Assembly (NCBI RefSeq): GCF_041468085.1
Contig: NZ_CP121015.1
Span: 186,001 to 250,000, forward strand
Source of the DNA: Tistrella mobilis
GTDB taxonomy: Bacteria; Pseudomonadota; Alphaproteobacteria; Tistrellales; Tistrellaceae
Length of the DNA: 64,000 bases
Direction of reading: 5' to 3'
Below the pieces are notes generated by a model. That model was given only the letters and a program-made list of their open reading frames with translations. It had not been told where the DNA came from and made no database searches. This document shows positions 31,044-47,745 of the stretch, piece after piece (position 1 is the first letter of the stretch; each line of letters begins with the position of its first letter). Both the position numbers and the translations under genes were made by a program.

Positions 31044-32390
31044 ATGACGCCGGCCTATGCCATTGGTGCAACCCTCGTCGCCGTGCTCGGCTTCGTGGGC
31101 CTGCGCGTGCCGATCGCCTTCGCCCTGATCCTGGGGGCGGCAATCGGGCTGCTTTTCGTCTATGGCTGGTATCCGGGCGAAGCTTTCGATCCCGAAGCCG
31201 CCTTCCGGCCGATGATGTCGGTTCTGGCCGACGTTCCGTTCCAGTTCGTCCACAGCTATGAACTCAGCACCATCCCGCTCTATATCCTGCTCGGTGCCGT
31301 GGCGCACAAGGCGGGAATCACCACCGACGTCTTCCGGTCGATGCGGGTGCTGCTCGGGCGGATGCCGGGCGGGCTGGCGGTCGCCTGCATCTTCGGCTGC
31401 GGCGGTTTTTCGGCGCTGTCGGGATCCAGCCTCGCCTGTGCCGCGGCCATGGGCCGGATCTCGATCCCCGAGATGATCGACAACGGCTATGACCGGCGGC
31501 TGGCCGCCGGCACGGTGGCGATGGGCGGCACGGTCGGCTCGATGATTCCGCCCTCGATCCCCTTTCTGCTGTTCGCGATCCTGGCCGAGGTGTCGGTGGG
31601 GCAGCTGCTGCTGGCGGGCATCCTGCCGGGGCTGCTCACCCTGCTCGGCTATGTGATCACGGTGCAGATCTGGGTGCGGCTGCGCCCCGAAGCGGCCCCC
31701 GGGCGCATGGCGCGGGTGTCGGCCCGCGACATGCTGGGGGCGGTCCTCGGCCTCTGGCCGGCGACCCTGCTGTTCGCGATCATCGCGATCGGCATCTTCA
31801 CCGGCCTGTTCACCACCATTCAGTCGGCGGCGGTGAGCGTGATTGCCGCCACCCTGATCGGCATCGCCCGCGGCGCGCTACGCCTGCGTGACATGTACGA
31901 GGCGCTGGAGGATGCCGTCTCGCAATCGGCCCAGCTTTTCGTCATGGCCTTCGGCGCCAAGGTGCTGATCACGCTGGTTGCGGCGTCCGACCTGACCTCC
32001 GGCCTGGTGGGCTGGACACAGCATGCCGGGCTGGAGCCCTGGCAGGTGATGGCGGCGATCATCGTGCTGTTCCTGATCCTGGGCATGTTCCTCGACCCGT
32101 CGGGCATCCTGCTGCTGATGGTGCCGATCACCCTGCCGATCGTGTCGGGCCTTGGCTACGACCTGATCTGGTATGCGGTGATCGTGGTGAAACTGCTGGA
32201 GATCGGGCTGGTGACGCCGCCCATGGGGTTGAACGCCTTCATGGTCAATGCCGCCGTGCCGCGCAGCCATGCGGTGGATCTGCGCGAGGTCTTCGCCGGC
32301 ATCGCGCCCTTCCTGGTGCTGGAAGCGGTGGTGACGGGGCTGCTGCTCGGCTTTCCGATCATCTCGCTGCTGATCCCCGGCATGATGTAA
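31044..32390 (+). CDS. dctM: TRAP transporter large permease (DctM family)
   Basis: A 448-aa membrane protein with about 12 helices. ATG 31044 follows GGAAGG; an in-frame ATG ten codons earlier lacks a ribosome-binding site. DctM landmarks are visible: LGFVGLRVPIAFALILGA at the N-terminus, the sodium/substrate loop GFSALSGSSLACAAAMGRIS, GGTVGSMIPPSIPFLLFAIL, and LGMFLDPSGILLLMVPITLP. It transports the DctP ligand with sodium. Its last 32 bp overlap the 3' end of the opposing thioesterase gene. Confidence 0.92.
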   Translation: MTPAYAIGATLVAVLGFVGLRVPIAFALILGAAIGLLFVYGWYPGEAFDPEAAFRPMMSVLADVPFQFVHSYELSTIPLYILLGAVAHKAGITTDVFRSMRVLLGRMPGGLAVACIFGCGGFSALSGSSLACAAAMGRISIPEMIDNGYDRRLAAGTVAMGGTVGSMIPPSIPFLLFAILAEVSVGQLLLAGILPGLLTLLGYVITVQIWVRLRPEAAPGRMARVSARDMLGAVLGLWPATLLFAIIAIGIFTGLFTTIQSAAVSVIAATLIGIARGALRLRDMYEALEDAVSQSAQLFVMAFGAKVLITLVAASDLTSGLVGWTQHAGLEPWQVMAAIIVLFLILGMFLDPSGILLLMVPITLPIVSGLGYDLIWYAVIVVKLLEIGLVTPPMGLNAFMVNAAVPRSHAVDLREVFAGIAPFLVLEAVVTGLLLGFPIISLLIPGMM

Positions 32391-33180
32391 GGCGGGATGT
32401 AAGGCGGGCATTGCCGGCCATGGCCGCGAATGCCTGCCGGAGCGGGGCCTGCATGGCCGGGCCCTGATCCAGGATCTGGAAATGACCGCCGGGGATCCGC
32501 ACCACGTCGACCGGGCCGGTGGTGACCTCGGACCACGCGGCCAGGCGGGCCGGGGTGGCATCGGCATCCGCCAGCCCCGCGATCGCCAGGATCGGGCAGG
32601 CGAGCGGCGGGGTGGGGTCGACCCGGTGGGTTTCGAGCAGCCGGTAATCGGCCCGCAGCACCGGCAGCACCCAGTCGAGCAGTTCGGCATGCTCGAAGAC
32701 CTCGGGCGGGGTGCCGCCCAGGCGGCGCATCTCGGCCACCAGCCCGTCGCGGGGCAGAAGGTGGCGGCCCTCCGGTGCCGGAAGATGGGGCGCCTGACGG
32801 CCGCTCATGATCGCGAGCACCGGCCCCCGGCCCGCCGCCTCCAGACGGCGGGCCAGCTCGAAGGCGAGCACCGTGCCCATGCTGTGGCCCATCACCACCA
32901 GCGGCAGATCGGCCAGCGGCAGCACCTCGCGGCTGAGGTCGGCGGCAAGCCCGGCCATCGTGTCCGCCGGCGGTTCGGCGAAACGCATGCCCCGGCCGGG
33001 CAGTTCGACCGGCCAGATTTCGACGTCGTCGGGCACGCCGGCCGTCCAATGGGCGGCCGGATCGCCGGTCGGGCGGCAGAGATCCGCCGTGCCGCCCGCA
33101 TGATGGAGAACCACCATGCGGGCGGACGCGGCGGCGTGGCGGCGGATATGGCGGAACCAGGCCATGGGATCGTCTCTCAT
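32359..33180 (-). CDS. Type II thioesterase of the NRPS/PKS cluster
   Basis: A 273-aa alpha/beta hydrolase. ATG 33180 overlaps the upstream NRPS stop (ATGA); a second ATG five codons on is also possible. GrsT-like features: LHHAGGTADLC opening, WPVELPGRGMRFAEPP, nucleophile VVMGHSMGTVLAFELARRL (Ser about 98), acid in IAGLADADATP and histidine in IPGGHFQIL. Family role: clears misloaded or stalled acyl groups from carrier proteins. It is the last gene of the assembly line and converges on dctM, overlapping it by 32 bp. It is a separate protein, so it does not supply the missing release TE in cis. Confidence 0.92.
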   Translation of the reverse strand: MRDDPMAWFRHIRRHAAASARMVVLHHAGGTADLCRPTGDPAAHWTAGVPDDVEIWPVELPGRGMRFAEPPADTMAGLAADLSREVLPLADLPLVVMGHSMGTVLAFELARRLEAAGRGPVLAIMSGRQAPHLPAPEGRHLLPRDGLVAEMRRLGGTPPEVFEHAELLDWVLPVLRADYRLLETHRVDPTPPLACPILAIAGLADADATPARLAAWSEVTTGPVDVVRIPGGHFQILDQGPAMQAPLRQAFAAMAGNARLTSRLTSCRGSAAR

Positions 33181-36100
33181 TCGGCGGCACGGATGCCGGC
33201 CGCGGGCAGAAGCCCGGCATCGGCAAGCGCATCGAGGCACAGGCGGAGGCCGGCCCGGTCCAGGGCCGGAAGGCCAAGGCCCAGCGCGGCCAGCCGGGCA
33301 TGGGTGCGGGTCGCGTCGACCGGCCGCTGCCGGGCGATGTGGTCGGTTTCGGCCAGCAGCGGCACCAATGCGGCCAGGTCGGCATCCTCCGGCCGGGTCG
33401 CCGCCAGCCGGCGGACCCGGCCGGTCCAGTCGGCGGTGGCGATGCGCGGCAGGGCGAAGCCCCGGCCCCGCAGCACCTCTGCGACATCATCCCAGTCGAG
33501 CGGCGCGCCGCCCGACAGATGGGTGATGCGGCCGGCCTGCGCGTCGCCGCCGCCGCCCGGGCCGGCCTTGGCCAGCGCCAGGAAGGCGTCGGCAAGATCG
33601 TCGGGACGGACCAGATCCAGCACCCGGCCGGTTTCCGGCATGGCATCGACCAGCGCCATGGCCCGGATCAGCCGCCAGGTCATCTCCCCCGCATCGACCC
33701 GATGATGCAGGCGGTCGCCGGCAATGGTGGTGGCGCGGTGCAGCATCACCGGCCAGCCGCGGGCGATTGCCCGGCAGAGCAGGCGGTCCGCCGCCCAGCG
33801 GCTGGCCAGATAGCCCGTGCCGAGCCCGTCGGGGCCGCCCGGGTCGCCGGCCTCGTCGAAGGGGGGCGCATCGGCGGCGGTATGGTCGACGATGCCGAAA
33901 CTGCCCAGATAATGCACCGGTTTTGCCCGGCCCCCGGCCGCGAAGGCCAGCACCTCGCGGATGCCCTGGACATTGGCGGTGCGCAGGCGCGCATAGTCTT
34001 CGGCGAAATGGATGCGCGCGCCGGTGTGCAGCACGACATCGATCTCCCGGGAAAGCGCCGCCCATCTGCCGGGGGCAAGGCCAAGCGCCGGCCGGTCGAG
34101 GCGGCCCGCGATCACCGTCAGCCGCCGGGCGCGGTCGGGGGTCCAGAGGCCCCAGGCCCCGAGCCGGGCGGTGAGGGCGCGCAGGGCGGCCGCATCATCC
34201 GCGGCCTCTTCGATCACCGTTACCCGTGCCGCCGGATCATCGAGGGCGCGGGCCAGGATCCAGCCCGCGACCAGCGCGGGAACCCCGGTCATCAGGAGTG
34301 CGGCCGGACCGTCCGGCCAGGACGGAACCGGCCCCGGCGGGGGCGAGAGGTCATCCACGAGCGAGAGGTCGTCGCGCGGATCGGCAGCGGTACCGGCAGC
34401 GGCACCGGCTGCGACATCGCCGCCGTGGCCGGCCGCCAGGCGGTCGATCAGGGCGGCCTGGTCGGCCAGAACCGGGCTTGCATAGGCGGTCTTCAGCGGG
34501 AAATCGATGCCGAAGGCCCGGCCGACGCTGAAGGCCAGCTGGGTGGCGAGCAGGGAATTGCCGCCCAGCGCCAGGAAATCATCCTCCCGCGCAACGCCGG
34601 CGGTCTTGAGCAGCCCCGACCAGATGCCGGCCAGCCGGCGTTCGGTGGCGGTGGCGGGCGGCGTGCCGGCCCCGCCGCGGCGGCGGATCGCGCTGCGGGC
34701 GGCACCGTCCAGCGCCTGACGGTCGATCTTGCCCGTGGGGGTGCGCGGCCAGTCGTCGTGCAGCAGCACCAGATCCGGCACCATGGCCGGCGGCAACACC
34801 GCCTCCAGATGGCTGCGGAGCGCAAGGGTCAGCCGTTCCGCCGCAGCCAGGCGTTCGGGATGGCTGACCAGATCATCGAGCGGACGGGCGTCTTCCCCCG
34901 CCGGCCAGACGACCGGCGGCCCGGCCGGCCCCCGCCGGAACACCGCCCGGAAGCCGAGGCCATCGGCATCGAGCTGGAGATCGAGCGTATATCCCGCCCG
35001 GTCGGCCAGATCGTACAGTTGTTCGGGATCCGCACCACAGCCGGCGGGATCGGCATCCGCCGCTGCGACCCGGCGCCGCCAGTCGCCGGCATCCGCCGCC
35101 TGATCCAGCAGCTGCGCGGCCAGATGCGGCCGGAAGAGGCGGCGATGGGGAATGCCGGTCACCGCCAGCATCTCCGGTCCGGCCGCCAGGGCTGCGGCCA
35201 GGGCATCCGGCCCGACCCAGGGAATGGCGGCGGGCAGCGCCGCCGTGGCGGTGACGCCCTGCCGGATCAGCGCGTCGAAACGGCAGGCGGTGAGTTCATT
35301 GTCGGCGAAACCCCGCCGGGGCATGGTCTGCACCGCCGCCCCGGGCAGGATGCCGGCCGCAAGCCGCGCCACCGCCGACGGATGCAGCACGAGTTCGGTT
35401 TCGGCCGCAAGCGCCGCCCCGATCCGGTCGCGGATCGCCGCCCGGTCGAGGGCATCGGGCGCGGTGCGGAACAGAATGTCGGTCCTGAGCGCCGGATTGG
35501 CGGCCAGATTGCGCAGATCGCCCAGAAACACCCGGCCATCCGGCGCCAGGACCGGTTTCAGGGCGGCGAGCATGCGCGCCAGATGGCCGATATCCGGCAG
35601 GTACTGCACCACCGAATTCACCACCACCAGATCGAAACCGCCCGGGGGCACCAGCGCCGCCGGCAGCACGGCCGTCGCCTCGCAGAGCGCCAGGCGGACA
35701 TGGCCGAGATCCGGCCGGCGGGCCTGAAGCCCGCGGATGGTGTCGAGGGCTGCGGCCGAGATGTCGGTGCCGAGAAAGGCCTCGGTGCCGGGGGCGATGC
35801 GGGCCAGCAGGAAGCCCTGGCCGCAGCCGATTTCCAGCACCCGGCGCGGTGCCAGCGCCCGGATGCGGGCAACGGTCGTCTCCACCCATTCGGCCATCTG
35901 ATCCGCCGGGATCGGGCTGCCGTCATGGCTGTTGCGCCAGATGCGGTAATCGGCCAGCGGGTCGGCGCCGTCGCGGGCGATGCCGGCATATTCGCCGTCA
36001 TAGACCGTGCGCCAGCGGGCAACGGCAAGTTCCGGATCGCCGGCCGGCCCGCCACCGGTCGTGACATGGGCGATCAGCCGGCGGTCGGGCAGGTCGGTGC

Positions 36101-38792
36101 CGCCGCAATCGATCGCCGCCGCCACGGCGTCCTGCACCTCGGGATGGTCACGCAGCCGGGACTCGATCTCGCCCGGTTCGATCCGCATGCCGCGGATCTT
36201 GATCTGGCCGTCACGGCGGCCGCGATGGATCAGCCGGCCCTGGCCGTCCAGTGCCACCAGATCACCGGTGGCGTGGCGGGGGCCGTCATCCGCGGGCTGG
36301 AAGGCGTGGGCGGTGCGGTCGGCATCGCCATGATAGCCGAGGGCGAGCACCGTGCCCCGGACGTGCAGCTCCCCCACAGCCCCCACCGGCACCGGCCGGC
36401 CGGCCGGATCCAGCACCGCCAGCCGGGCGCCGGGCAGCGGCCGGCCGATCGGCACCGGCCCGTCATCGCCGCGGGACAGGCGGGTTGCGGTCACATCGGC
36501 GGTCACCTCGCTCGATCCGTAGAGATTGAGCAGCAGGGCGTCGGGAGCGAGGCGGCTATACAGTTGTTGGACGAGTGATCGGGACAATGCTTCGCCGCTG
36601 AGATGTAGAACCCGGAGCGGCCAGGATGTCTCCGGCGCCGGATCGGCGGCGAGCATGACGGCGGCCACCGAGGGTGTGAGCACCAGGCGGGTGACGCCCT
36701 GCCGGCGGATTTCCGCCAGCAGGGCCGCCGGATCGCGCGCGACCGCGGGCGCCGGGACCAGGGCGGGGAAACCGGCCGCCAGCGGGTGGAGCAGTTCGGC
36801 CAGTGCATCGACGAAGGCGGGGGAGGTCTTCAGGCAGGCAAGGTCGCCGGCCGCCGCGGGCAGGCTGTCCATCGCCCAGCGCAGCCGGTTGAGCAGCGCG
36901 TCGCGGGCAAGCAGCACGCCCTTGGGCCGGCCGGTCGAACCCGAGGTGTGGATCAGCACGGCGGGGGCGCGGGCCGCCAGGCGCGCCGGAGCCGCGGCGC
37001 GGGCGGCGAATGCCGGCCGGCCGGCCAGGACGGTCGCGGGATCGAGCCGGGCGAGGCCCGGCACATCCCCGGTGCCGGCCAGCACCCGGATGCCGGCGCC
37101 CCGGGCAAGCTCTGCGATCGACGCCGTCGGTCGGGCCGGGTCGAGCGGGGCGGCGACCACCCCCCGGCGCAGGGCACCGAGCAGGGCGCCGGCCAGCGCC
37201 CGGCCGGGCGGCAGGGCCAGCGCCAGGATGTCGCCGGCTTTCAGCCCGGCCTCGGCCATGGCGGCATCCCAGGCCGCGGCGTCGGCCAGCAGATCCGCCG
37301 CGGCGACGGTGCCGTCGGCCCCGATCAGCGCCGGAGCGGCCCCCCTTGCGCCGAGGCCGCGGGCCAGCTCGTCGAAGAGGTCATCCTCTGCCCGCAGCAG
37401 CGCCGGCCCGCCGTCGACGACCGCGGCGCCGTCGGTCTCAAGCCCGATCGCGGCCATCCGGCGGTCGGGATCGGCGGTGAGCGCCCGGATCAACCCGACC
37501 AGCCGGTCGAGCAGCAGGCCGGCCTCGGCGCCGGTGATCCGGCGCGGGTCGTGGGCAAGGCGCAGCCGGATTTCCGCGCCGGGGAAGCCGGCCAGCATCA
37601 GCGGATAGCTGGTCTTCTCGAAGGTCGCCCGTTCGGTGAAGCGGATGCCGCGGGTGGCGAAGGGGTCCAGGGAGGCGAGCGGCATGTTCTCCCACACCGT
37701 CATCGACGTCAGCAGCTCGATGCCCGGGGCGATGCCGGCGGCGGCGCGGATCCCGGTCAGCGGCAGATGGTCGTGCTGGCGGGCCTCTACCAGCAGCGCC
37801 TGGACCCGGCGCAGCCAGTCCGCCGCCGTCGCCTCGTCGTCGATCGTGACCGCCACCGGCAGAATGGCGAGCAGGGGGCCGAAGATCTGTTCGACACCCG
37901 GAATCTCTGCCGGCCGGCTGGTCGATGTCGTGGCGAAGAGCGCCCGGGGCTGGGCGTCGTGGCGGGCGAGCAGCAGGCCCCAGGCGGCCTGGAACAGGCT
38001 GGCCTCGGTGATGCCGATCCGGCGCGCGGCAGCCTGGATGGCGGCGGTCTGGTCGCGCGGCAGCACCCGTTCCACCAGGCCGTGATCCTGGGGCCCGGCA
38101 TCGGCGGCGGCCGGGCCGCGGTCGAACGGCAGGCGGGCGGGGGCTGCACCGTCGAGCGTGCGCGCCCAGAAATCGCGCGCGGCGGCGGTGTCGCGGCCGG
38201 CCAGCCAGTCGACATAGTGCCTGAGCGGCGGGGCGGGCGGCAGGGCGGGCGCCGTACCGCCGCCCGCATAGACCCGCGCGACATCGCCGAAGGCGAGGCC
38301 GAGCGACCAGCCGTCGGCGACGACGTGATGCAGCGTCGTCACCACCGCATGGGTTCCGGCCCCCAGGCGCGCAATGGTGAGGCGGATGAGGGGGGCCCGG
38401 TCCAGGGCGAAGCCGCGCGCCCGATCCTCGGCCAGGAAGGCATCGAGCCGGGCGAGCGGGTCGGCCTCGCCGGACCAGTCGGCGATGGTGACCGGCAGCA
38501 CCGCCTTGCGGCGCACCACCTGAAGCGCCCGGTCGAAACCCTGCCAGTGGAAAGAGGCGCGCAGGGCGGCATGGCGATCGACCGCTTCCTGCCAGCCGCC
38601 GGCATAGAGCGCCGGATCGAACGGCCCCGTGACCAGGGCGGCGTATTGCTGCAGATACATCGCAGCCCCCGGTTCCCGGAGCACATGATGCAGCATGCCC
38701 TGTTGCAGGGGCGTGACCGGGTGGATGTCTTCGACATCCGGACGGCCTGCGGGGGGGATGGTGGCGGTTGGGGCGGCGGGTGTCGTCGACAT
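33177..38792 (-). CDS. NRPS: C-A(MT)-T-TD, terminal module with degenerate reductase
   Basis: An 1871-aa protein; ATG 38792 (MSTTPAAP) lies 8 nt after the previous stop, and a longer frame gives a basic nonsense extension. Domains: C about 20-445 (HHVVADG 155-161); A from about 465 (HTSGSTGRPK, FVDALAELL 660-668, NLYGSSEVTAD); methyltransferase inserted between A8 and A9 at about 920-1290 (VLEIGCGQG 985-993); A10 TPTGKIDRQAL; T with GGNS (Ser1413); reductase-like domain about 1490-1871. The pocket read by alignment to GrsA is V-D-A-V-H-S-L-A-D, close to the beta-alanine code. In the reductase, TGxxGxxG reads TGVPALVAG (1502-1510) and YxxxK reads YLASR (Tyr1661, Arg1665), so reductive release may be impaired. 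Confidence 0.9.
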   Translation of the reverse strand: MSTTPAAPTATIPPAGRPDVEDIHPVTPLQQGMLHHVLREPGAAMYLQQYAALVTGPFDPALYAGGWQEAVDRHAALRASFHWQGFDRALQVVRRKAVLPVTIADWSGEADPLARLDAFLAEDRARGFALDRAPLIRLTIARLGAGTHAVVTTLHHVVADGWSLGLAFGDVARVYAGGGTAPALPPAPPLRHYVDWLAGRDTAAARDFWARTLDGAAPARLPFDRGPAAADAGPQDHGLVERVLPRDQTAAIQAAARRIGITEASLFQAAWGLLLARHDAQPRALFATTSTSRPAEIPGVEQIFGPLLAILPVAVTIDDEATAADWLRRVQALLVEARQHDHLPLTGIRAAAGIAPGIELLTSMTVWENMPLASLDPFATRGIRFTERATFEKTSYPLMLAGFPGAEIRLRLAHDPRRITGAEAGLLLDRLVGLIRALTADPDRRMAAIGLETDGAAVVDGGPALLRAEDDLFDELARGLGARGAAPALIGADGTVAAADLLADAAAWDAAMAEAGLKAGDILALALPPGRALAGALLGALRRGVVAAPLDPARPTASIAELARGAGIRVLAGTGDVPGLARLDPATVLAGRPAFAARAAAPARLAARAPAVLIHTSGSTGRPKGVLLARDALLNRLRWAMDSLPAAAGDLACLKTSPAFVDALAELLHPLAAGFPALVPAPAVARDPAALLAEIRRQGVTRLVLTPSVAAVMLAADPAPETSWPLRVLHLSGEALSRSLVQQLYSRLAPDALLLNLYGSSEVTADVTATRLSRGDDGPVPIGRPLPGARLAVLDPAGRPVPVGAVGELHVRGTVLALGYHGDADRTAHAFQPADDGPRHATGDLVALDGQGRLIHRGRRDGQIKIRGMRIEPGEIESRLRDHPEVQDAVAAAIDCGGTDLPDRRLIAHVTTGGGPAGDPELAVARWRTVYDGEYAGIARDGADPLADYRIWRNSHDGSPIPADQMAEWVETTVARIRALAPRRVLEIGCGQGFLLARIAPGTEAFLGTDISAAALDTIRGLQARRPDLGHVRLALCEATAVLPAALVPPGGFDLVVVNSVVQYLPDIGHLARMLAALKPVLAPDGRVFLGDLRNLAANPALRTDILFRTAPDALDRAAIRDRIGAALAAETELVLHPSAVARLAAGILPGAAVQTMPRRGFADNELTACRFDALIRQGVTATAALPAAIPWVGPDALAAALAAGPEMLAVTGIPHRRLFRPHLAAQLLDQAADAGDWRRRVAAADADPAGCGADPEQLYDLADRAGYTLDLQLDADGLGFRAVFRRGPAGPPVVWPAGEDARPLDDLVSHPERLAAAERLTLALRSHLEAVLPPAMVPDLVLLHDDWPRTPTGKIDRQALDGAARSAIRRRGGAGTPPATATERRLAGIWSGLLKTAGVAREDDFLALGGNSLLATQLAFSVGRAFGIDFPLKTAYASPVLADQAALIDRLAAGHGGDVAAGAAAGTAADPRDDLSLVDDLSPPPGPVPSWPDGPAALLMTGVPALVAGWILARALDDPAARVTVIEEAADDAAALRALTARLGAWGLWTPDRARRLTVIAGRLDRPALGLAPGRWAALSREIDVVLHTGARIHFAEDYARLRTANVQGIREVLAFAAGGRAKPVHYLGSFGIVDHTAADAPPFDEAGDPGGPDGLGTGYLASRWAADRLLCRAIARGWPVMLHRATTIAGDRLHHRVDAGEMTWRLIRAMALVDAMPETGRVLDLVRPDDLADAFLALAKAGPGGGGDAQAGRITHLSGGAPLDWDDVAEVLRGRGFALPRIATADWTGRVRRLAATRPEDADLAALVPLLAETDHIARQRPVDATRTHARLAALGLGLPALDRAGLRLCLDALADAGLLPAAGIRAAE

Positions 38793-38800
38793 GATGCGGC

Positions 38801-41800
38801 TCACTCGGCAAGGCTGGCGAGAAGGTCGTCGAGACCGGACTGATCGAGCCCGGCCGACGCGAAATCCGAGGGGGTGAGGCGGCCGGCGGCGGGATCCAGG
38901 CAATGGGCGACCAGACCGGCCAGCCGGTCGAGGATCTGCCGGCCGAGCGCCGTCAGCGCCGCGGCGTCGCGGTCGGTGGCCGCCAGCCTGAGATGCAGCC
39001 GCCCCCCGGCGAACCAGGCGAGCAGTTCCAGCGCATGGCCGCCCGGGGCGCCGGGGGCGCGGACCAGATCGGCGGCCGTGGCGGTGACGATCCGGCCGGG
39101 CGGGGCGGTATCGAGCGGCCCCAGATAGGACAGCCGCGGATCGGACTGCCGCCCGGCCGGCGACAGCCGCGGCGGCAGGTCGTCCAGCAGATCCATGGCG
39201 CCGAGCCGCGCGCGGGCGGTGCGCAGCGCCTCTTTGGCGGCCGGGATGGCGTTGTCGGGGCCGGCGGCAATCCCGGCCGGAACCGCCACGGCGACGCTGG
39301 CGGCAAAGGGCCCGACGGCGCGGGAGAGGTCGAACCCCGCCTCGCGGCCCGACGAGGCGACCCAGAGCAGATCACCGGCCAGCACCGATGCGGCGGCGGC
39401 CCAGACCAGTTCTTCGGTGGTGGTGCGATAGGCCTGCGCGGCCGGGCCGGCCAGGCTGGCGCTGATATCGGCATCGAGGGCCAGATCGGCCACGGCCTGC
39501 GGCCCCGCCGCTGCCGGCCGGGCCGGGCCGGCAGCGGCGGCCAGCCTGTCGAGCGCGGCGCGCAGTGCCGCATCCTGCCGGGCGGCCGGCATGGCCGCGG
39601 CGGCCCAGGCCGGGAAGCCCGGCCCGGCCGGGGGCAGGGCGGCGTCGGGCCGGTCGAGCAGCCGGTCGAGACCGGTCGCCAGCAGATCGGCCGAGGCGGC
39701 ATCGGCTATGGCGGCATCCACCGCCAGCCAGAGCCGGTCGGGCCGGTCGGTGAGGGCAAGACATACCGGCCCGCCCGCCGCCCGAAGGGCATCGGCCACG
39801 GTGGCGGCGTCGTCGGCCAGCGGACCGGCCAGCAGCCGTGCTGCCGGCGGCGGATCGGCCGCGATCACCGGCCGCCCGCCCGGGCGGGTCAGGCGCAGCA
39901 TGGGATGATGGCGGGCAAGCGCGGTCATCGCCTGGGCGGCGGTGGCCCGATCAACCGGTCGGGCAAGATCCAGCCGGCGCAGATGCAGCGTGGCGGGCGC
40001 CGCCTCTGCCGCCCAGGCGGCAAGGCCTGGGGTTGCGGTGACCGGGCCGTCGGCGGGCGTCTCGTCCGGGTCGCCGATCGGCTGCACCATCCGGGCGAGG
40101 CCGGCGACGGTGCGGGCCTCGAAGACCGATTTGGCGGTGAGCGCCAGCCCGGCTTCGGCGGCGAGGCGGACCATGCGCAGCACCATGATCGAATTGCCGC
40201 CGAGTTCGACGAAATCGTCGTCGCGGCCGATCGGGGCGATGTAGAGCAGTTCGGACCAGATGGCGGCCAGCGCGGTTTCGACCGGGCCTTCGGGTGCCGC
40301 CCAGGCGCTGGCGAGATCGGGGCGCGGCTGGGCCGGGATGGCGGCGGGGCCGGCCGCCGGCGCCGCGGCCTCCGCGGCCGCAGGGGCGGCTGCGCGCCCG
40401 CCCGCGTCCAGTGCGGCGATGGCGGCGTCTTCGGGCGTCGGCAGCCAGTGGCGGGTGCGGGCGAAGGGATAGCCCGGCAGTGAAACCGGCCGCGGCCCGG
40501 CCGCATCTTCGGCCGGGTCGAGGGCGATGTCGTGGCCGGCGACCCAGAGCCGGGCTGCGGCCGAGAGCAGGGCCGTGCGGTCGGCGAGCGGATCGCCGGC
40601 CGCGGCCCGGGCCGGCGGCAGCAGGGTGACGACCGGGGCGAGGCCGGCCGCGGCGGCGAAGGCGGCGACACCCGAGGGCGGGCCCGTTTCGACCAGCAGG
40701 CAGGCATCGCCGAGTGCCGCAAGGGCTGCGGCGAAGCGCACCGGCCGGCGGATCTGCCCCGCCCACCAGCCGGGATCGGTGGCATCTGCGGCAGTGAGCG
40801 GCCGGCCGTCGACCGATGAGATCAACACCCGCAGCGGTGCCTGGCGCGGGGTCGCCGCGACCGCCGCCGCCATCACGTCGAGCGCGGGCGCCATCAGCGC
40901 GGTGTGGAAGGCGCGGCTGGTGCGCAGCCGGGTGGTATCGATCCCGGCCGCGCGGGCGGCCTCGTCCAGCGCCGCGATCGCCGCGGGGCTGCCGCCGGCG
41001 ACCACGGCATCGGGCGCGTTGATCACCGCAATTTCCAGCACCGCGGCCGGCCCCAGGGGCCGGCGGACGCCGTCGATCAGCGCCTGCACCCGGGCATCGG
41101 ATGCGGCCAGATGCAGCATCGCTCCTTCGGGCGTCGCGGCCATGGCGCGGCCCCGCACAACCGCCAGCCGGCAGGCATCGGCATCGGTGAAGATGCCGGC
41201 CAGGGCGGCGGCGGCCAGCTCGCCGATGCTGTGGCCGGCCAGGCGTTCGGGCCTGAGCCCGCGCGCGTCCAGCAGCCGGGCGAGGGTGAGTTCCACCGCG
41301 ACCAGCAGCGGCTGGGTGTTGCGGGTATCGGCCAGAACCGCGGCATCGCCTTCGGCGATCAGCCGGGCCAGATCCGGCCCGCCGGCTGCCCGCACCGCCT
41401 CGGCAAGCGGCCGGAAGATCCGGGCGGCCTGGGGATCGGTGGCGAGCAGGCCGCGCATCAGCCCGGGATACTGGCTGCCCTGGCCGGGCAGGATCAGGGC
41501 GACCGGGCTTCCGGTCGCCGTGCCGGCGATTACCCGGCCGGCGGCAAGCGCCTCGGCGGCCGCGGCCCGGTCATGGGCGACCACGGCGCGGCGGTGGCGG
41601 AAGGTCTTGCGGCCATGGCGGAGCGTCCAGGCCGCGTCGGCGAGCGGCAGATCCGGCCGCTCGGCCAGCCAGGCGCCCAGGCGGGCAACGGCCGCATCGG
41701 CGGCGCGGGCATCGGCGCCCGAAACCGCGAGCAGCTGGACGGGCGAGGCGGCCGGCCGGCCGGCCGGCAGCGGCGCCTCTTCCAGCACGACATGGGCATT

Positions 41801-43099
41801 GGTGCCGCCGACACCGAAGCTCGACACCGCGGCACGGCGCGGCATCCGCCCGCGCGGCCAGGGGATCGGCTGCGACACCAGCCGGAAGGGCCGGCGGTCG
41901 AGATCGAGCGCCGGATTTGGCCGGTTGGTGTGCGGCGTCGCCGGGATCAGCCCGCGATCGAGCACCAGCGCGGTCTTGATCAGCCCCGCCAGCCCCGCCA
42001 CCGTATCCATATGGCCCAGATTGCCCTTGAGCGCGCCGACCGGAACCAGCCCCGGAACCAGCGCCCGCGGGTCGGCCGCCGCCGCCCGCCAGGCCTGGTC
42101 GAGGGCGGCGATTTCGATCGGATCGCCCAGCCGGGTGGCGGTGCCATGGGCTTCGACATAGCCGATCGCGGTGGGGTCGACGCCTGCGACCGCCAGGGCC
42201 TCGGCGATCACGGCGGCCTGGCCGTCGACGCCCGGGGCTGCGAAACCGACCCGGGTGGCGCCGTCATTGTTGACCGCACTGCCGCGGATCACCGCGATGA
42301 TCCGGTCGCCGGCCGCCAGCGCGTCGTCGAGCCGGCGGAGCATCACCGCCGCGACGCCGCTTGCGAAGATGGTGCCGTCGCCGGCCGCATCGAAGGGCCG
42401 GCACAGACCGTCGGGCGACCGGATCCCGCCCTCGGTATAAAGATAGCCCAGCCGGTTGGGGATCAGCACCGTGCAGGCCCCGACCAGGGCACGGTCGCAA
42501 TCGCGTGAGAGCAGGCTCTGGCAGGCGAGATGGGTGGCGACCAGAGAGGAGGAACAGGCGGTCTGCACGGTGATCGCCGGGCCGTTCAGGCCGAATTCAT
42601 AGGCGATGCGGGTGGCGGCGTAATCCTTGTCGTTGGCGATGACCACCTCGACCGGATCGATGCTGCCGTCATGGACCCGCGGCATGACGTTGGCGATCAG
42701 ATAGCCCGAGATGTTGACGCTGGCGAAGACGCCGGTGCGGATACCGTCGCGGTCGCCGGGGATGATCGCGGCATCCTCGAACGCCGCCCAGGCGGTTTCC
42801 AGCAGCAGGCGCTGCTGCGGGTCCATGAAGGCGGCATCACGCGGGGGCATGCGGAAGAAGCCGGCATCGAAACAGTCGGGATCGTCCAGCCCCGACATCA
42901 TCGGCACATAGCCCGGGCGATCGTGGATGCGGGCATGGATCGAGCGGGCGAGCACATCGGCCGGCACCGGCTTCATCGCCGTGCCGCCGGTTTCGAGCAG
43001 CCGCCACAGCGCCTCGATATCGCAGGCCGCAGGGAAGCGGCCGGCCATGCCGATGATCGCGATGGCCTCGGGGCCGGCGCCGTCGGTGGTTTCGGTCAT
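38801..43099 (-). CDS. PKS: KS-AT-ACP followed by a dead epimerase-like domain
   Basis: A 1432-aa protein; ATG overlaps the upstream NRPS stop (ATGA). KS 10-440 has all three catalytic residues: Cys182 in TACSSSL, His in EAHGTATR (318) and His in GNLGHMDT (363). AT about 530-850 has GHSIGE (622-627) and RAFH at 729-732, of the HAFH malonyl type. ACP about 940-1005 with GGNS (Ser970). No KR, DH or ER, so it should add an unreduced two-carbon unit. The last ~370 residues resemble an NRPS epimerization/condensation domain (LARHHPMLRL, TEELVWAAAASVL, PRLSYLGPLDTAP), but HHxxxDG has become DAAIADA (1128-1134). Catalysis is therefore not expected. Confidence 0.9.
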   Translation of the reverse strand: MTETTDGAGPEAIAIIGMAGRFPAACDIEALWRLLETGGTAMKPVPADVLARSIHARIHDRPGYVPMMSGLDDPDCFDAGFFRMPPRDAAFMDPQQRLLLETAWAAFEDAAIIPGDRDGIRTGVFASVNISGYLIANVMPRVHDGSIDPVEVVIANDKDYAATRIAYEFGLNGPAITVQTACSSSLVATHLACQSLLSRDCDRALVGACTVLIPNRLGYLYTEGGIRSPDGLCRPFDAAGDGTIFASGVAAVMLRRLDDALAAGDRIIAVIRGSAVNNDGATRVGFAAPGVDGQAAVIAEALAVAGVDPTAIGYVEAHGTATRLGDPIEIAALDQAWRAAAADPRALVPGLVPVGALKGNLGHMDTVAGLAGLIKTALVLDRGLIPATPHTNRPNPALDLDRRPFRLVSQPIPWPRGRMPRRAAVSSFGVGGTNAHVVLEEAPLPAGRPAASPVQLLAVSGADARAADAAVARLGAWLAERPDLPLADAAWTLRHGRKTFRHRRAVVAHDRAAAAEALAAGRVIAGTATGSPVALILPGQGSQYPGLMRGLLATDPQAARIFRPLAEAVRAAGGPDLARLIAEGDAAVLADTRNTQPLLVAVELTLARLLDARGLRPERLAGHSIGELAAAALAGIFTDADACRLAVVRGRAMAATPEGAMLHLAASDARVQALIDGVRRPLGPAAVLEIAVINAPDAVVAGGSPAAIAALDEAARAAGIDTTRLRTSRAFHTALMAPALDVMAAAVAATPRQAPLRVLISSVDGRPLTAADATDPGWWAGQIRRPVRFAAALAALGDACLLVETGPPSGVAAFAAAAGLAPVVTLLPPARAAAGDPLADRTALLSAAARLWVAGHDIALDPAEDAAGPRPVSLPGYPFARTRHWLPTPEDAAIAALDAGGRAAAPAAAEAAAPAAGPAAIPAQPRPDLASAWAAPEGPVETALAAIWSELLYIAPIGRDDDFVELGGNSIMVLRMVRLAAEAGLALTAKSVFEARTVAGLARMVQPIGDPDETPADGPVTATPGLAAWAAEAAPATLHLRRLDLARPVDRATAAQAMTALARHHPMLRLTRPGGRPVIAADPPPAARLLAGPLADDAATVADALRAAGGPVCLALTDRPDRLWLAVDAAIADAASADLLATGLDRLLDRPDAALPPAGPGFPAWAAAAMPAARQDAALRAALDRLAAAAGPARPAAAGPQAVADLALDADISASLAGPAAQAYRTTTEELVWAAAASVLAGDLLWVASSGREAGFDLSRAVGPFAASVAVAVPAGIAAGPDNAIPAAKEALRTARARLGAMDLLDDLPPRLSPAGRQSDPRLSYLGPLDTAPPGRIVTATAADLVRAPGAPGGHALELLAWFAGGRLHLRLAATDRDAAALTALGRQILDRLAGLVAHCLDPAAGRLTPSDFASAGLDQSGLDDLLASLAE

Positions 43100-46000
43100 C
43101 GGGTGGCTCCGCGGTGCGGGGTGGGGCGCAGCCGGACGGCCCGCCTGGCGCGGGCGCGGGCCATGGCGTCGTCGGTCGCGGTATCGGCGGGCGGGCCGCT
43201 GCGATCCAGATGGGCGGCGAGCGAACGAATGTCCGGATATCGGAAAAGAACGACCAGAGGCAGGTCCTGGCCGGTTTCCCGTGCGATGCGCGCCTGCACC
43301 TCTGCCAGCAGCAGGGAATTGCCGCCCAGCCCGAAGAAATTGTCGTCGATGCCGACCTCGTCGAGGCCCAGAACGGCGCGCCAGATCGCCGCCAGCCGCT
43401 TCTCGGTGGTGGAGCCCGCTTCGACCAGGCGGCCGGTGGCGGCATGGGCGCGGGCGGTGGGCGGCGGCAGGCGGCGCCGGTCGATCTTGCCCGTGGCCGT
43501 GCGTGGCCAGGCATCCAGCAGCACCACCACATCGGGCACCATGGCCGGCGGCAGCGTACGCGCCAGATGGTCGCGCAAGGCAAGCTTCAGATCGGCGGCA
43601 TCGGCCAGCCGCTCGGGATGGCTGGCCAGATCGTCGAGCGCGGGCGACGCCTCCGGCCGGATCGCTGCATGAGCGACCGGCTGGAGATCGCCGTCCGGCC
43701 GGCCGTTGCCGACGGCCCGCCGGAACATGGCGGTGAAGCGGGTGCCGTCCGCCCCCTCGCCATGATCGAGATGCAGATCCAGCTGCCAGCCGTGGCGGGC
43801 GGCCAGATCGTGCAGGGTTTCGGGATCGGTGCCGGCCTCGGTGTCCGGCAGGGCGTCGCAGGCAGCCGCCACCGCCTGCCGCCAGTCGGCGGCATCGGCC
43901 GGCAGGCCGGCGGGATCCCGGGCGGGATCGACCAGATCGCGCGCGATCCGCCCGGCGGCAAGGCGGCGATGGGGGATGCCGGTCACGGTCAGCCCGCCCG
44001 CCCCGGTTTCTGTGGCCAGGGCGGATTCAAGCGCATCCAGACCCGCCCAGGAGGCGGCCTCCGCCACCGGGGCTGCGGTGGCGGCGGCGTTCAGATGGAT
44101 GATCGCGTCGTAGCGATGGGCGGTGAGTTCGTTGCAGGCCCGGCCCCGCCGCGGCAGGGTGGCGACCGCAGACCCGGGCCAGTGGCGGCCGGCCAGCACC
44201 GGCACCGCCCGCGGATGCAGCACCAGTTCGGGCTCGGCGGCGATCCGCGCCGCAACCCGGTCGCGCAGGGCGGGGCCGTCGAGCCGGTCTTCGGCGCGGC
44301 GGTGCAGCACCTCGGCATGGAAGGCGGGCAGGCTGCCCAGGTTGCGCAGATCGCCGAGCAGGATGCGGGCATCCGGGGCGAGCACCGGCACCAGCGCCGC
44401 CAGCACCCGGTCCAGATGCGTGATCGAGGGCAGGTACTGCACGACCGAGTTCAGCACCACCACGTCGAAGCCGCCCGGCGGCACGGCCCCGGCCGGCAGG
44501 GGATCGGCGGCCTCGGCCTCGATCAGCTGCAGATGGCCGAGACCGGGGCGGCTGCCGGCCAGGCCGCGCAGCAGCTCCAGCGCCGGCCGGCTGACATCGG
44601 TGCCGACATAGCAGGGCACGTCCGGCGCCAGCCGTGCGGCCAGAAAGCCCTGGCCGACGCCGATCTCCAGCACCCGCGAGGGGTTGAGCGCGCGGATGCG
44701 GGCGACGGTCGCCGCCACCCATTCCGCCATCTCGGCAGCCGGGATCGGCCGGCCGTCATAGCTGCTTTCCCAGATCCGGTAATCGTCGAGCACGGCGGTG
44801 CCGGCATCGCGAACGGCGCCGTAGAGATCGTCATAGACCTGACGCCAGCGGTCGACCGCGCGGCCCGCGGTATCGGCATCGCCGCCCTTGTCCGCAGGCA
44901 CGACATAGGCCACCAGCCGCCGGTCGGGGGCTGCGCTGTCGGCCTCGGCCTCGCGCCGCACCTCGACCGCGGCGACCAGCGCTTCGCGCACCCGGGGATG
45001 ATCGGCCAGCCGGGCCTCGATTTCGCCGGGTTCGATCCGCACGCCGCGGATCTTGATCTGCAGGTCGCGCCGACCGCGGTGGACCAGCTGCCCGTCGGGG
45101 CGCCGGCTGACCAGATCGCCGGTGGCCAGTTCCACGCCATGGGGGCCGTTGCGGAACAGGGCCGCCCTGCGCGCGGCATCGCCGTGATAGCCGAGCGCCA
45201 GCACCCGGCCCGAGAGATGCAGTTCCCCCACCATGCCCGGCGGCACCGGCCGGCCTTCGGGATCCAGGATCCGGGCGATGCAGCCGGGCAGGGGCAGGCC
45301 GATCGGAATGTCGGTATCGTCCGCGGCCGGGTCGATCCGGGCCACGGTCGCATCGGCGGTGACTTCGCTTGACCCGTAAAGGTTGAGAATTACGGTATTA
45401 TCCGCAAGTGTTGGACGTAGACGTCGGAGCAGCGGCCGGTCGAGCGGCTCACCGCTGACATGCAGCAGCCTGAGCGGCCAGGGCGCCGCGCCGTCGCGGG
45501 CGGCCCCGTCGGCATCGATCATCGCCGCCAGCACCGACGGGGTCACGACTAGCCGGGTGACCCCGTGCCGGCGGATGAGGGCGAGCAGCGCCGCCGGATC
45601 GCGGGCCTCGTCGGGCGCGGGCACCAGGGCCGGAAAGCCGCCGAGCAGCGGGTGGAGCACCTCGGCCAGGCCGTCGACGAAGGCGGGCGAGGTCTTGAGG
45701 CAGGCAAGGTCGCCGGGGCGGGCCGGCCAGGCCGTCACCGCCCAGACCAGACGGTTGAGCAGGGCGCCGCGGGCCAGTGCCACCGCCTTCGGCCGGCCGG
45801 TGGAGCCGGAGGTGTGGATCAGCACCGCCGGGGCATCGGGATGGATGGCGACCGGCGCGCCATCCTGAACCGGCGGCAGATCCGCCGGATCGAGATGGAC
45901 GAGACCGGGCAGCGCCGCGGCGACGGCAGGGGGGGCCACCAGGGCGCGGATCCCGGTGTCGGCCGCGATGTCGCGCACCGACAGGGGCGGCCGGCGCGGG

Positions 46001-47745
46001 TCGAGCGGGGCGGCCACCACCCCGGCGCGCAGGCAGCCGAGCAGGGCCGCCAGATAGGCCCGGCCGGGATCGAGCATCAGGGCCACCACCTCGCCCGCGG
46101 CGATCCCCGCCCGGTCGAGCGCCGCGGCCCAGCGCGCGGCATCTGCCCGCAGACGGGCCGCGCTCACCTCGCCCCCGGCACCGGTCAGCGCCGGGGCATC
46201 GCCTCGGGCGGCAAGCGCGGCATCGATCCGGGCGAACAGGTCGTCATCTGCCGCATCGCCCGCCAGCGCCGGGCCGCCATCGATGGTGGCGGCGGCCGCG
46301 GCCTCGGCCGGGTCGGCCAGCGCCAGGCCGGCCAGGGGGGCGGCCGGGTCGGCCAGGCCCGCCTCCAGCAGCCGGACCACGGCCGCGCCGATCCGCTGCA
46401 CGGTCGTCTCGCGGAACAGATCGGTCGAATAGATCACATGGCACCAGATCCCGTCGGCCTCGGGCCAGGCCAGGATCTCCAGGTCCATATGGGTCGCGGC
46501 CGCCGGCACCGGCAGCGGGGTCAGACGGAGCGGCCCGTCTTCCGCCCGGTCGAGCGGGGCGTTCTGGAAGGTGAAGGCGACCTGATAGAGGGGGTTGCGA
46601 TCCAGATCGCGCTCGGGAGCCAGCGCCTCGACCAGGTTCTGGAACGGCACCGCCTGATGGTCCAGGGCCTGAAGCACCTCGTCGCGCATGGCCTCCACCT
46701 GGCCGGCGAAGCTGCCGGCGCCGGCCAGGTCGGTGCGGATCAGCAGATTGTTGACGAAGAAGCCGATCAGCTCTTCGGCCTCGGGCCGCGTGCGGCCGGC
46801 GACCGAGGCGCCGATGACGAAACGCTCCAGCCCCTCGATCCGGCCCAGCGCCGCCGTGACGGCGGCGAGCAGCACCATGTTCAGGCTGGCGCCGCAGGCG
46901 CGGCCGAACCGGTCGGCCGCGGCGGTCAGGGCGGCGGGGATGCGGAAGCCGGTGGCCGCACCGGCGAAGCTCTGTTCCGCCGGGCGCGGCCGGTCGCCGC
47001 GGGGCGAGAGCGGCGGCAGATCGGCCAGCCGGTCGCGCCACCAGCGGATGTCGTCATCGAGCCGGCCGGCCGGCAGGGCCTGGGCCGCCGCAACGGCGGC
47101 ATAGCGCGCGACCGGCGCGAAGGCGGGGGCGGTGCCGCGGCTGCGGGCGTCCAGTGCGGTGGCGAGGTCGCGGTTGAAGATGCCGATCGACCAGCCGTCG
47201 AAGGCGATGTGGTGGAAGCCATAGACCAGGATGTGATCGTCCGGGCCGCGGCGCAGCAGCCGGGCGCGCATCACCGGCCCGCGGGCCAGATCGAAGGGGG
47301 TGGCGGCCTCGGCCGCGATCGCGGCCCGGATGCGGGCCTCCGCCACTTCCGGCGCCGCATCGGTCAGATCCTCGACCGGCAGCTGGACGGCGGCGGGCGG
47401 CAGGATGCGCTGGCAGGCACCCCGGCCCGGATCGTGCGGGAAGATGGTGCGGAGCGGTTCGTGACGGGCGATCACGTCGCCGATCGCGGATTCCAGCGCG
47501 CCCGTGTCGAGCGGCCCGCGGATGCCGAGGGCGAAGGGCAGGTTGTAGGAGGCGCTGTCTGGCGCCAGCCGGTCCATGAACCACAGCCGTTCCTGCGCTG
47601 CCGACAGCGGCGGCGAGACCGGATCGACCTCGGGCAGGGCAGCGGCGGGGCCACCGCCGCCCGAGAGCCGGGCCAGATCGTCCACCGACAGGGCGGCGAG
47701 CCGCTGCTTCAGCGTGTCGAGGGAGACGGGGGAGAGCAGGGTCAT
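43096..47745 (-). CDS. NRPS: C-A(MT)-T module, beta-amino-acid-type A domain
   Basis: A 1549-aa protein overlapping both neighbours by ATGA. C about 45-470 (HHIAFDG 178-184); A about 500-945 (HTSGSTGRPK, FVDGLAEVL 689-697, NLYGSSEVTAD); embedded methyltransferase about 960-1345 (VLEIGVGQG 1025-1033, preceded by SSYDGRPIP); A10 TATGKIDRRRL about 1416; T with GGNS (Ser1477). The pocket reads V-D-A-V-H-S-L-A-D, identical to that of the terminal module. Embedded methyltransferases between A8 and A9 usually N-methylate the tethered amino acid. The A-MT half is a clear duplicate of the one at 33177-38792. The first ~40 residues form a helical linker that may dock with the upstream subunit. Confidence 0.9.
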   Translation of the reverse strand: MTLLSPVSLDTLKQRLAALSVDDLARLSGGGGPAAALPEVDPVSPPLSAAQERLWFMDRLAPDSASYNLPFALGIRGPLDTGALESAIGDVIARHEPLRTIFPHDPGRGACQRILPPAAVQLPVEDLTDAAPEVAEARIRAAIAAEAATPFDLARGPVMRARLLRRGPDDHILVYGFHHIAFDGWSIGIFNRDLATALDARSRGTAPAFAPVARYAAVAAAQALPAGRLDDDIRWWRDRLADLPPLSPRGDRPRPAEQSFAGAATGFRIPAALTAAADRFGRACGASLNMVLLAAVTAALGRIEGLERFVIGASVAGRTRPEAEELIGFFVNNLLIRTDLAGAGSFAGQVEAMRDEVLQALDHQAVPFQNLVEALAPERDLDRNPLYQVAFTFQNAPLDRAEDGPLRLTPLPVPAAATHMDLEILAWPEADGIWCHVIYSTDLFRETTVQRIGAAVVRLLEAGLADPAAPLAGLALADPAEAAAAATIDGGPALAGDAADDDLFARIDAALAARGDAPALTGAGGEVSAARLRADAARWAAALDRAGIAAGEVVALMLDPGRAYLAALLGCLRAGVVAAPLDPRRPPLSVRDIAADTGIRALVAPPAVAAALPGLVHLDPADLPPVQDGAPVAIHPDAPAVLIHTSGSTGRPKAVALARGALLNRLVWAVTAWPARPGDLACLKTSPAFVDGLAEVLHPLLGGFPALVPAPDEARDPAALLALIRRHGVTRLVVTPSVLAAMIDADGAARDGAAPWPLRLLHVSGEPLDRPLLRRLRPTLADNTVILNLYGSSEVTADATVARIDPAADDTDIPIGLPLPGCIARILDPEGRPVPPGMVGELHLSGRVLALGYHGDAARRAALFRNGPHGVELATGDLVSRRPDGQLVHRGRRDLQIKIRGVRIEPGEIEARLADHPRVREALVAAVEVRREAEADSAAPDRRLVAYVVPADKGGDADTAGRAVDRWRQVYDDLYGAVRDAGTAVLDDYRIWESSYDGRPIPAAEMAEWVAATVARIRALNPSRVLEIGVGQGFLAARLAPDVPCYVGTDVSRPALELLRGLAGSRPGLGHLQLIEAEAADPLPAGAVPPGGFDVVVLNSVVQYLPSITHLDRVLAALVPVLAPDARILLGDLRNLGSLPAFHAEVLHRRAEDRLDGPALRDRVAARIAAEPELVLHPRAVPVLAGRHWPGSAVATLPRRGRACNELTAHRYDAIIHLNAAATAAPVAEAASWAGLDALESALATETGAGGLTVTGIPHRRLAAGRIARDLVDPARDPAGLPADAADWRQAVAAACDALPDTEAGTDPETLHDLAARHGWQLDLHLDHGEGADGTRFTAMFRRAVGNGRPDGDLQPVAHAAIRPEASPALDDLASHPERLADAADLKLALRDHLARTLPPAMVPDVVVLLDAWPRTATGKIDRRRLPPPTARAHAATGRLVEAGSTTEKRLAAIWRAVLGLDEVGIDDNFFGLGGNSLLLAEVQARIARETGQDLPLVVLFRYPDIRSLAAHLDRSGPPADTATDDAMARARARRAVRLRPTPHRGATR

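Follow-up and report, generated by a model that had tools for sequence, protein, structure and literature searches.

The way in which an assembly line of nonribosomal peptide synthetases (NRPS) and polyketide synthases (PKS) releases its chain determines the head group of the product. Reductase (R) domains are defined by a Ser/Thr-Tyr-Lys triad (PMC8949500), and fungal reductase-like domains designated R* act in CpaS and EqiS without reduction or cofactor, with tetramate formation in the biosynthesis of cyclopiazonic acid and equisetin (PMC4979870; PMC3202784). The R* domain of CpaS requires an Asp and a His that do not belong to the usual triad (PMC3202784), and loss of the catalytic Tyr serves as a criterion of the fungal R* group (PMC8949500). 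Bacterial Dieckmann offloading is normally performed by thioesterase (TE) domains or by free TE-like cyclases, of which the NcmC/TrdC type combines an alpha/beta-hydrolase fold with Cys-Asp-His (PMC10956176). In kirromycin biosynthesis, KirHI acts on a beta-alanyl thioester to form a six-membered ring (PMC4979870), and a C-terminal condensation-like domain has been proposed as the Dieckmann offloader for epifadin and malonomycin (PMC11310079). A C-terminal R domain is also listed among the tetramate offloaders, with no restriction to fungi stated in the available part of the source (PMC10161427), and a non-reducing action near pyrrolinone formation was proposed for the R0 domain of ChmP in chalkophomycin (PMC11085572). 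Among the open-licence papers listed by our searches we found no description of a bacterial R* domain with Dieckmann activity, a negative that does not extend to the printed literature as a whole. Here, we analyze a candidate for such an activity, the terminal domain of an NRPS gene in a 64,000-nucleotide stretch of Tistrella mobilis (contig NZ_CP121015.1, positions 186,001 to 250,000 of the forward strand); this whole stretch is referred to as the window.

Automatic annotation would describe this domain as a reductase and predict an aldehyde or an alcohol, whereas the evidence presented here points to a cyclic dione. We judge, at slightly better than an even chance, that the domain is a non-reducing releaser that frees the chain by Dieckmann cyclization. 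The label R* is used below for this domain and for its bacterial relatives. The gene is located on the minus strand (38903..33177) and encodes 1908 amino acids if translation is taken to begin at the first TTG; a likelier start is the ATG at residue 38. In the 1908-codon numbering, Pfam places a condensation (C) domain at residues 58-488, an adenylation (A) domain at residues 521-858 and on, a nested methyltransferase (MT) at 1021-1138, a carrier (T) domain at 1423-1486 and NAD_binding_4 at 1539-1757:

33180..34301, minus strand: R* domain (residues 1535-1908), thioester-reductase fold without the redox signature (Pfam PF07993, E 2e-29; Foldseek; motif census)
34446..34637, minus strand: T domain with LGGNS (Pfam PF00550, residues 1423-1486)
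35490..35843, minus strand: methyltransferase domain inside the A domain, with VLEIGCGQG, presumed to be an N-methyltransferase (Pfam, motif)
36114..37343, minus strand: terminal A domain, code VDAVHSLAD of the beta-alanine type (Pfam; code mapping checked on an Alteromonas A domain)
37440..38732, minus strand: C domain, HHVVADG intact (Pfam, motif)

The active-site motifs listed for C, MT and T are intact, as are TSGSTGRPKG and GKIDR of the A domain. The sequence after the T domain runs ...LLMTGVPALVAGWIL...VLHTGARIHFAEDYARLRTANVQG...HYLGSFGIVDH...TGYLASRWAADRLL..., in agreement with the quotation in an earlier, sequence-only reading of this DNA. That reading placed a thioester-reductase fold after the last T domain, and the placement is borne out by the match to NAD_binding_4 (PF07993; 103 bits against a cut-off of 20.1) and by a Foldseek search, in which the top matches of the predicted structure were the PKS thioreductase of Streptomyces coelicolor (8v1x) and the MxaA R domain (4u7w), along with 5msp and other reductase domains of NRPS and of carboxylic acid reductases. 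The score against the TIGR01746 thioester reductase model was 156 bits, under the 213-bit cut-off. The best structure model had a mean predicted local distance difference test score (pLDDT) of 60 and the other four had 36-45, with the first 170 residues predicted fairly.

To compare the domain to its family, 61 distinct R domains were collected by homology and aligned, and the key positions were tabulated for five R* rows and 56 others. The R* rows come from the window (L009), an orthologue of the same genus (L010), genome G401 (L020; the same phylum as the window genome but a different class), Cupriavidus basilensis OR16 (L037) and Verminephrobacter aporrectodeae At4 (L038). It should be noted that the 56 other rows are homologues found by search and not a random sample, that some are near-copies, and that most are not known to come from lines with an established product. 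Copies of L037 and L038 (L059, L060), repeats (L039, L040, L084-L086, L001 and L002) and weaker TIGR01746 matches (L003-L008) were left out. The roles of the positions are those that we assume from knowledge of the family; in particular, we take the position of the CLVR Arg to be the contact of the NADP phosphate. The informative positions are as follows:

34260..34289, minus strand: TGVPALVAGW instead of TGxxGxxGxx (residues 1539-1548); third Gly replaced by Ala or Asn in 5/5 R*, Gly in 56/56 others
34206..34208, minus strand: Glu1566 at the position of the CLVR Arg; Glu, Asp or Pro in 5/5 R*, Arg in 55/56 others and Gln in one
33900..33905, minus strand: Gly1667-Ser1668 instead of Ser-Thr/Ser; first residue Gly in 5/5 R* and Ser in 56/56 others, next residue Ser in 5/5 R*
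33882..33887, minus strand: Asp1673-His1674 dyad, candidate base; Asp and His in 5/5 R*; of the 37 canonical rows, none (0/37) has the His and about 3% have the Asp at these columns
33798..33812, minus strand: YLASR instead of YxxxK (Tyr1698, Arg1702); Arg in 5/5 R*, Lys in 56/56 others
33702..33704, minus strand: His1734, invariant in R* (5/5), Gly in 28/37 canonical rows

Two of these changes, TGVPALVAG for TGxxGxxG and YLASR for YxxxK, had been named in the sequence-only reading, and the letters are correct; two further losses, those of the CLVR Arg and of the Ser ahead of the catalytic Thr/Ser, had been missed. Altogether, the window domain has Ala for the third Gly, Arg for the catalytic Lys, Glu for the CLVR Arg and Gly for that Ser. 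Neither the GxxGxxG loop with the NADP-phosphate Arg (here TGVPALVA and Glu) nor the complete Ser/Thr-Tyr-Lys triad is found, the Ser and the Tyr being kept and the Lys being Arg. The catalytic Tyr is present in 5/5 R* and in 55/56 others (Phe in one), and the catalytic Thr/Ser position is occupied by Ser in 5/5 R* and by Thr in 45 and Ser in 11 of the 56 others. From these residues we infer that the R* domain would have lost the binding of NADPH. The losses are accompanied by gains: 31 residues are invariant in R*, each present in no more than 15% of the 37 canonical rows (one of them, 1482, is in the T domain), and they include the Asp-His pair just past Gly-Ser and the His that is Gly in most canonical rows. 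A census count labeled H(GDRxxH), with His in 2/5 R*, refers to the column next to His1734 and not to His1734.

All four losses recur in the same-genus orthologue (83% identity) and in three distant bacteria (32-36% identity to the window). Chance or sequencing error is very unlikely as their cause because the identical pattern is present in four other genomes. The R* rows formed one clade in a tree of 42 rows (support 100/100), and still did so in a tree of 61 rows from which 59 signature columns had been removed (Shimodaira-Hasegawa-like approximate likelihood ratio test (SH-aLRT) 91, no star). The ratio of nonsynonymous to synonymous substitution rates (dN/dS), calculated by the Nei-Gojobori method for one pair of genomes, the window genome and that of the same-genus orthologue (G001), was 0.28 for R*, 0.27 for the A and MT region, 0.20 for C and 0.09 for T. 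The R* domain is, therefore, under purifying selection and is not decaying.

The R* clade is rare among the sampled genomes. Matches read as R* were found in 2/398 genomes drawn from the phylum, 2/385 from the class and 2/3 from the genus of the window; in 1/3 genomes from the family, 1/399 from the order and 1/360 from the class of G401; and in 1/60 genomes of the genus Cupriavidus and 1/299 of the family of Verminephrobacter. These counts are lower bounds in which the center genome is included each time, the draws overlap, the thresholds differ, and few candidates per genome were scored in the large draws. A pattern search with the window sequence alone found no relative; a three-row alignment used as the query succeeded. 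In plasmids, a near-DNA search found no relative, and protein searches found none that was close: every one of the 87 and of the 37 matching records was below 60% identity; the matches listed (25 of 87 and 25 of 37) have at most 36% identity and were judged by identity and not by motifs.

The genomic context provides the second line of evidence. The gene directly upstream of the R* gene (43099..38801) encodes ketosynthase (KS), acyltransferase (AT) and acyl carrier protein (ACP) domains and no ketoreductase (KR), the gap between AT and ACP being about 150 residues:

40085..43099, minus strand: PKS module KS-AT-ACP without KR, which would supply the beta-keto group (Pfam, motifs)

The Cys and His motifs of the KS are intact, as are GHSIGE and RAFH of the AT, which we take to be motifs of the malonyl type. 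The order of a KR-less KS-AT-ACP followed by C-A-(MT)-T-R* is found in 4/4 lines with readable context, representing three independent lineages (two of the lines belong to one genus). G001 has exactly this order; in G401, a KR-less PKS is followed by a 1456-aa gene, in which a C start motif, an A motif and R* were identified by motif reading and not by a Pfam scan; in Cupriavidus, the PKS lies in two frames and is followed by C-A-T-R*. The Verminephrobacter contig ends inside the A domain, so that no PKS context is readable. Dieckmann R* domains of the fungal type are reductase-like, stand at the end of the line behind C-A-T and receive their chain from a beta-ketoacyl module; CpaS, EqiS and PsoA have this arrangement, as does the window. 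Dieckmann-type release, one of the options offered in the sequence-only reading, thus gains support from the KR-less module in all four lines. As a control, 19 loci with canonical R domains were scanned for motifs, which is an insensitive method; no locus showed a KS motif, and a single one (L078) showed an AT motif. Pfam applied to four of the 19 (L066, L067, L069 and L078) revealed that L067 does contain a KS, overlooked in the scan, and the PKS gene of L078 has KR and dehydratase domains.

The size of the ring depends on the last residue. The codes of the terminal A domains are VDAVHSLAD in the window and G001, VDCVQSLAD in Cupriavidus and VDCVQSVAD in G401, with VQSLAD as the remaining part in Verminephrobacter. 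The other A-MT module of the window (gene g5) has the same code as the terminal A domain, and the second A domain of g1 has the similar VDALTSIAD. The mapping was checked on the A domain of an Alteromonas mediterranea plasmid (L105), for which the same reading by eye yields VDATVSIAD; VDATVSIADK is tabulated as beta-alanine, itself a prediction, for an Alteromonas macleodii plasmid (PMC3777966). A literature search by letters for six specificity codes gave no match. Judged from the codes, the terminal residue is most likely a beta-amino acid, beta-alanine; with such a residue, Dieckmann closure would give a six-membered dione and not a tetramate. The tetramate that had been considered earlier is less likely than the six-membered ring because the terminal A code is of the beta-alanine type. 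The G401 locus contains a gene for a pyridoxal-dependent decarboxylase (L036 2759-4345, minus strand), which, if it acts on aspartate, could make beta-alanine, suiting the code.

We propose that R* evolved from bacterial PKS/NRPS thioester reductases, giving up NADPH and hydride chemistry, and that release would proceed in the following steps: (i) the KR-less malonyl module, as its architecture suggests, would leave a beta-keto thioester; (ii) the C domain, by colinearity, would link the beta-ketoacyl chain to the (N-methyl) beta-aminoacyl-T; (iii) the R* domain, given its fold, would hold the T-linked chain at the usual binding place of R domains; (iv) a new base, for which His1674 with Asp1673, or His1734, are the candidates, would take the acidic proton of the CH2 between the carbonyls, and the enolate would be steadied by Arg1702, Tyr1698 and Ser1668; (v) the enolate would attack the thioester and expel the phosphopantetheine thiol, freeing the ring. 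The substrate is probably an N-(beta-ketoacyl)-beta-aminoacyl thioester and the product a 3-acylpiperidine-2,4-dione, in this case an N-methyl-3-acylpiperidine-2,4-dione; with an alpha-amino acid as the residue, a five-membered tetramate would form. The match of family and fold, the lost residues and their conservation, the clade, the selection, the module order and the A-domain code are observations, whereas we infer the Dieckmann chemistry, the ring size and which residue acts as the base. A fuller proposal is that these domains represent a rare bacterial, reductase-derived Dieckmann clade of four family-level lineages, with new Asp-His/His bases and a beta-alanine module, that makes six-membered 3-acylpiperidine-2,4-diones (N-methylated in this case), R* having been invented independently outside fungi and with another ring size. 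This combination is tentative, and we give it well under an even chance.

The nearest solved relatives by the R* profile are 8v1x (250 bits) and the MxaA R domain (PDB 4u7w/4w4t; 236 bits). Both are similar to the window domain in fold, length and terminal place, but both keep TGxxGxxG, CLVR, ST and YxxxK, all four of which are lost or changed in the window domain. The profile score against fungal PsoA was 73 bits, and the trees of 42 and 61 rows contained no fungal rows; the higher profile scores of bacterial R domains suggest an origin of the bacterial R* independent of the fungal R*. The R* domain of CpaS lost the Tyr (replaced by Leu), whereas in the window R* the Tyr is kept and the losses are those of the Gly loop, the NADP Arg and the Lys; PsoA, over the part that could be aligned, retains ST, the Tyr and the Lys. 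The Asp and His of CpaS and those of the window domain need not match in position. With Tyr1698 kept, as in 5/5 R*, the window domain would work like an R* and yet stands outside the fungal R* group if that group is defined by the missing Tyr. TrdC, NcmC, BpdE, KirHI and TE domains share the predicted reaction, but they have the alpha/beta-hydrolase fold and the window domain has the Rossmann fold of short-chain dehydrogenases/reductases (SDR); in place of Cys-Asp-His on a hydrolase fold, we found a thioester-reductase fold in R* and a Ser in the GHSMG of the adjacent TE. The R0 domain of ChmP is bacterial and reductase-like, as is the window domain, but is located between AT and ACP within a PKS, whereas the window domain follows the terminal T domain of an NRPS. 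BurF, from the malleicyprol pathway, is likewise a bacterial hybrid of PKS and NRPS that contains a C domain and ends in an R domain.

Several observations weigh against Dieckmann release. We know of no product or activity for any of the five R* lines. The change of Lys to Arg is conservative, and the Tyr and the Ser are still present. The C-terminal half of the domain is poorly modeled (best mean pLDDT 60 and 59), so that the models give no view of the pocket. The loci of the window, G001 and G401 also carry a thioesterase. The beta-alanine assignment is a prediction in PMC3777966 too. The L067 locus (G071) encodes KS-ACP-C-ACP-R with a canonical R domain, so a KR-less context does not prove Dieckmann release; this layout resembles that of BurF, in which the R domain reduces and a Dieckmann product was sought and not found (PMC12304814). 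Given the canonical R domain of L067 and the reducing BurF, context alone does not decide, and it is the combination of context with the loss of the redox residues that carries the argument. Finally, the upstream PKS and NRPS genes of Cupriavidus basilensis OR16 are in overlapping split frames (L037 3622-4602 and 4434-6818; L082 1758-5327 and 5147-8239), which may be draft errors or misassembly, or may indicate a damaged, decaying line.

The main rival explanation assigns release to the neighboring gene:

32359..33168, minus strand: discrete type II-like thioesterase, GHSMG (Pfam, motif; dN/dS of the G001 orthologue 0.19)

This TE could release the chain by hydrolysis or cyclization, with R* assisting the T domain as a scaffold or chaperone and having no catalytic role. 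We consider this unlikely, although it deserves the most attention among the alternatives: in both the window and G001, the gene after R* encodes the TE, and the G401 locus encodes a TE that is 38% identical to that of the window, on the opposite strand. Conversely, in a tblastn search at E 1e-3, the window TE matched nothing in L037 and L082, the Cupriavidus stretches that hold R*; a more divergent TE, or one farther away, may exist. A bare scaffold would hardly need the shared invariant residues that R* has gained near the active-site motifs, and the window TE carries the usual GHSxG serine, as do, we assume, editing type II TEs. Release by the separate TE, another option of the sequence-only reading, is thus weakened, with the TE genes of three loci in its favor and the missing Cupriavidus match against it.

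The domain could also still be a reductase, in which Arg stands in for Lys and the cofactor is bound through the altered loop. The retained Tyr and Ser/Thr of the triad, the conservative nature of the Lys to Arg change and the first half of the Rossmann core, predicted with fair confidence, are compatible with this; the explanation is nonetheless improbable in our view, given that the Gly loop, the NADP Arg, the Ser before Thr/Ser and the Lys are changed together in 5/5 R* and kept in 55-56 of the 56 others. Some other non-redox release, i.e., macrocyclization, lactonization onto an A-KR hydroxy acid, or hydrolysis, is highly improbable: the A-KR-T module of the line makes a hydroxyl or ester unit likely, and no activity is known, but what the four readable lines have in common is a KR-less module ahead of the final residue, and the scanned genes of G401 and Cupriavidus, loci that were read only in part, showed no A-KR module. 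A decaying reductase, as also suggested in the sequence-only reading, can hardly be credited: the lost family residues, the E-like domain without a catalytic motif in the preceding PKS and the split frames of Cupriavidus would fit it, but it is contradicted by purifying selection on R* at the level of the A and MT region, by the intact C, A, MT and T motifs in the same gene, and by the conservation of the same changes at 32-36% identity.

If Dieckmann release is correct, an R-derived offloader joins the bacterial Dieckmann catalysts, and an SDR-type enzyme can shed its cofactor and yet remain a chain releaser. The signature for searches would be GS in place of ST, YxxxR, no CLVR Arg, the Asp-His dyad, a KR-less PKS upstream and an A domain of the beta-alanine type.

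Two further features lie upstream of the R* gene:

38801..40084, minus strand: epimerization-type (E-like) domain after the ACP, catalytic His motif lost (likeness to PvdL and to gramicidin and tyrocidine synthetases)
43096..47745, minus strand: C-A-MT-T module, A code the same as in the terminal module (Pfam, code reading)

The E-like domain (38801-40084) had no Pfam match; it keeps the typical C-terminal end, has VDAAIADAA where HHxxxDG is expected, shows a dN/dS of 0.35, and is possibly a docking piece or a relic. The module at 47742-51119 (minus strand) contains a condensation-type domain with DMWCFD, presumably the DxxxxD motif of the heterocyclization kind. Its A code, DLYNVGIVW, resembles the Cys code DLYNLSLIW (PMC3777966). 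A thiazoline is the likely product of this module, as far as motif and code indicate. The C-A-KR-T module at 54136-59562 (minus strand) has the A code VAFSTASSL without the amino-group-binding Asp, which we take to be a trait of keto-acid-activating A domains; the module would supply a hydroxy-acid unit and is followed by another KS-AT-ACP gene without KR. In Cupriavidus, R* is followed by a major facilitator superfamily (MFS) gene (Pfam; L037 11164-12471), and the start of the gene after R* in Verminephrobacter (L038 2314-3612) looks similar to it by eye; the MFS gene beside R* is a candidate for export or self-protection.

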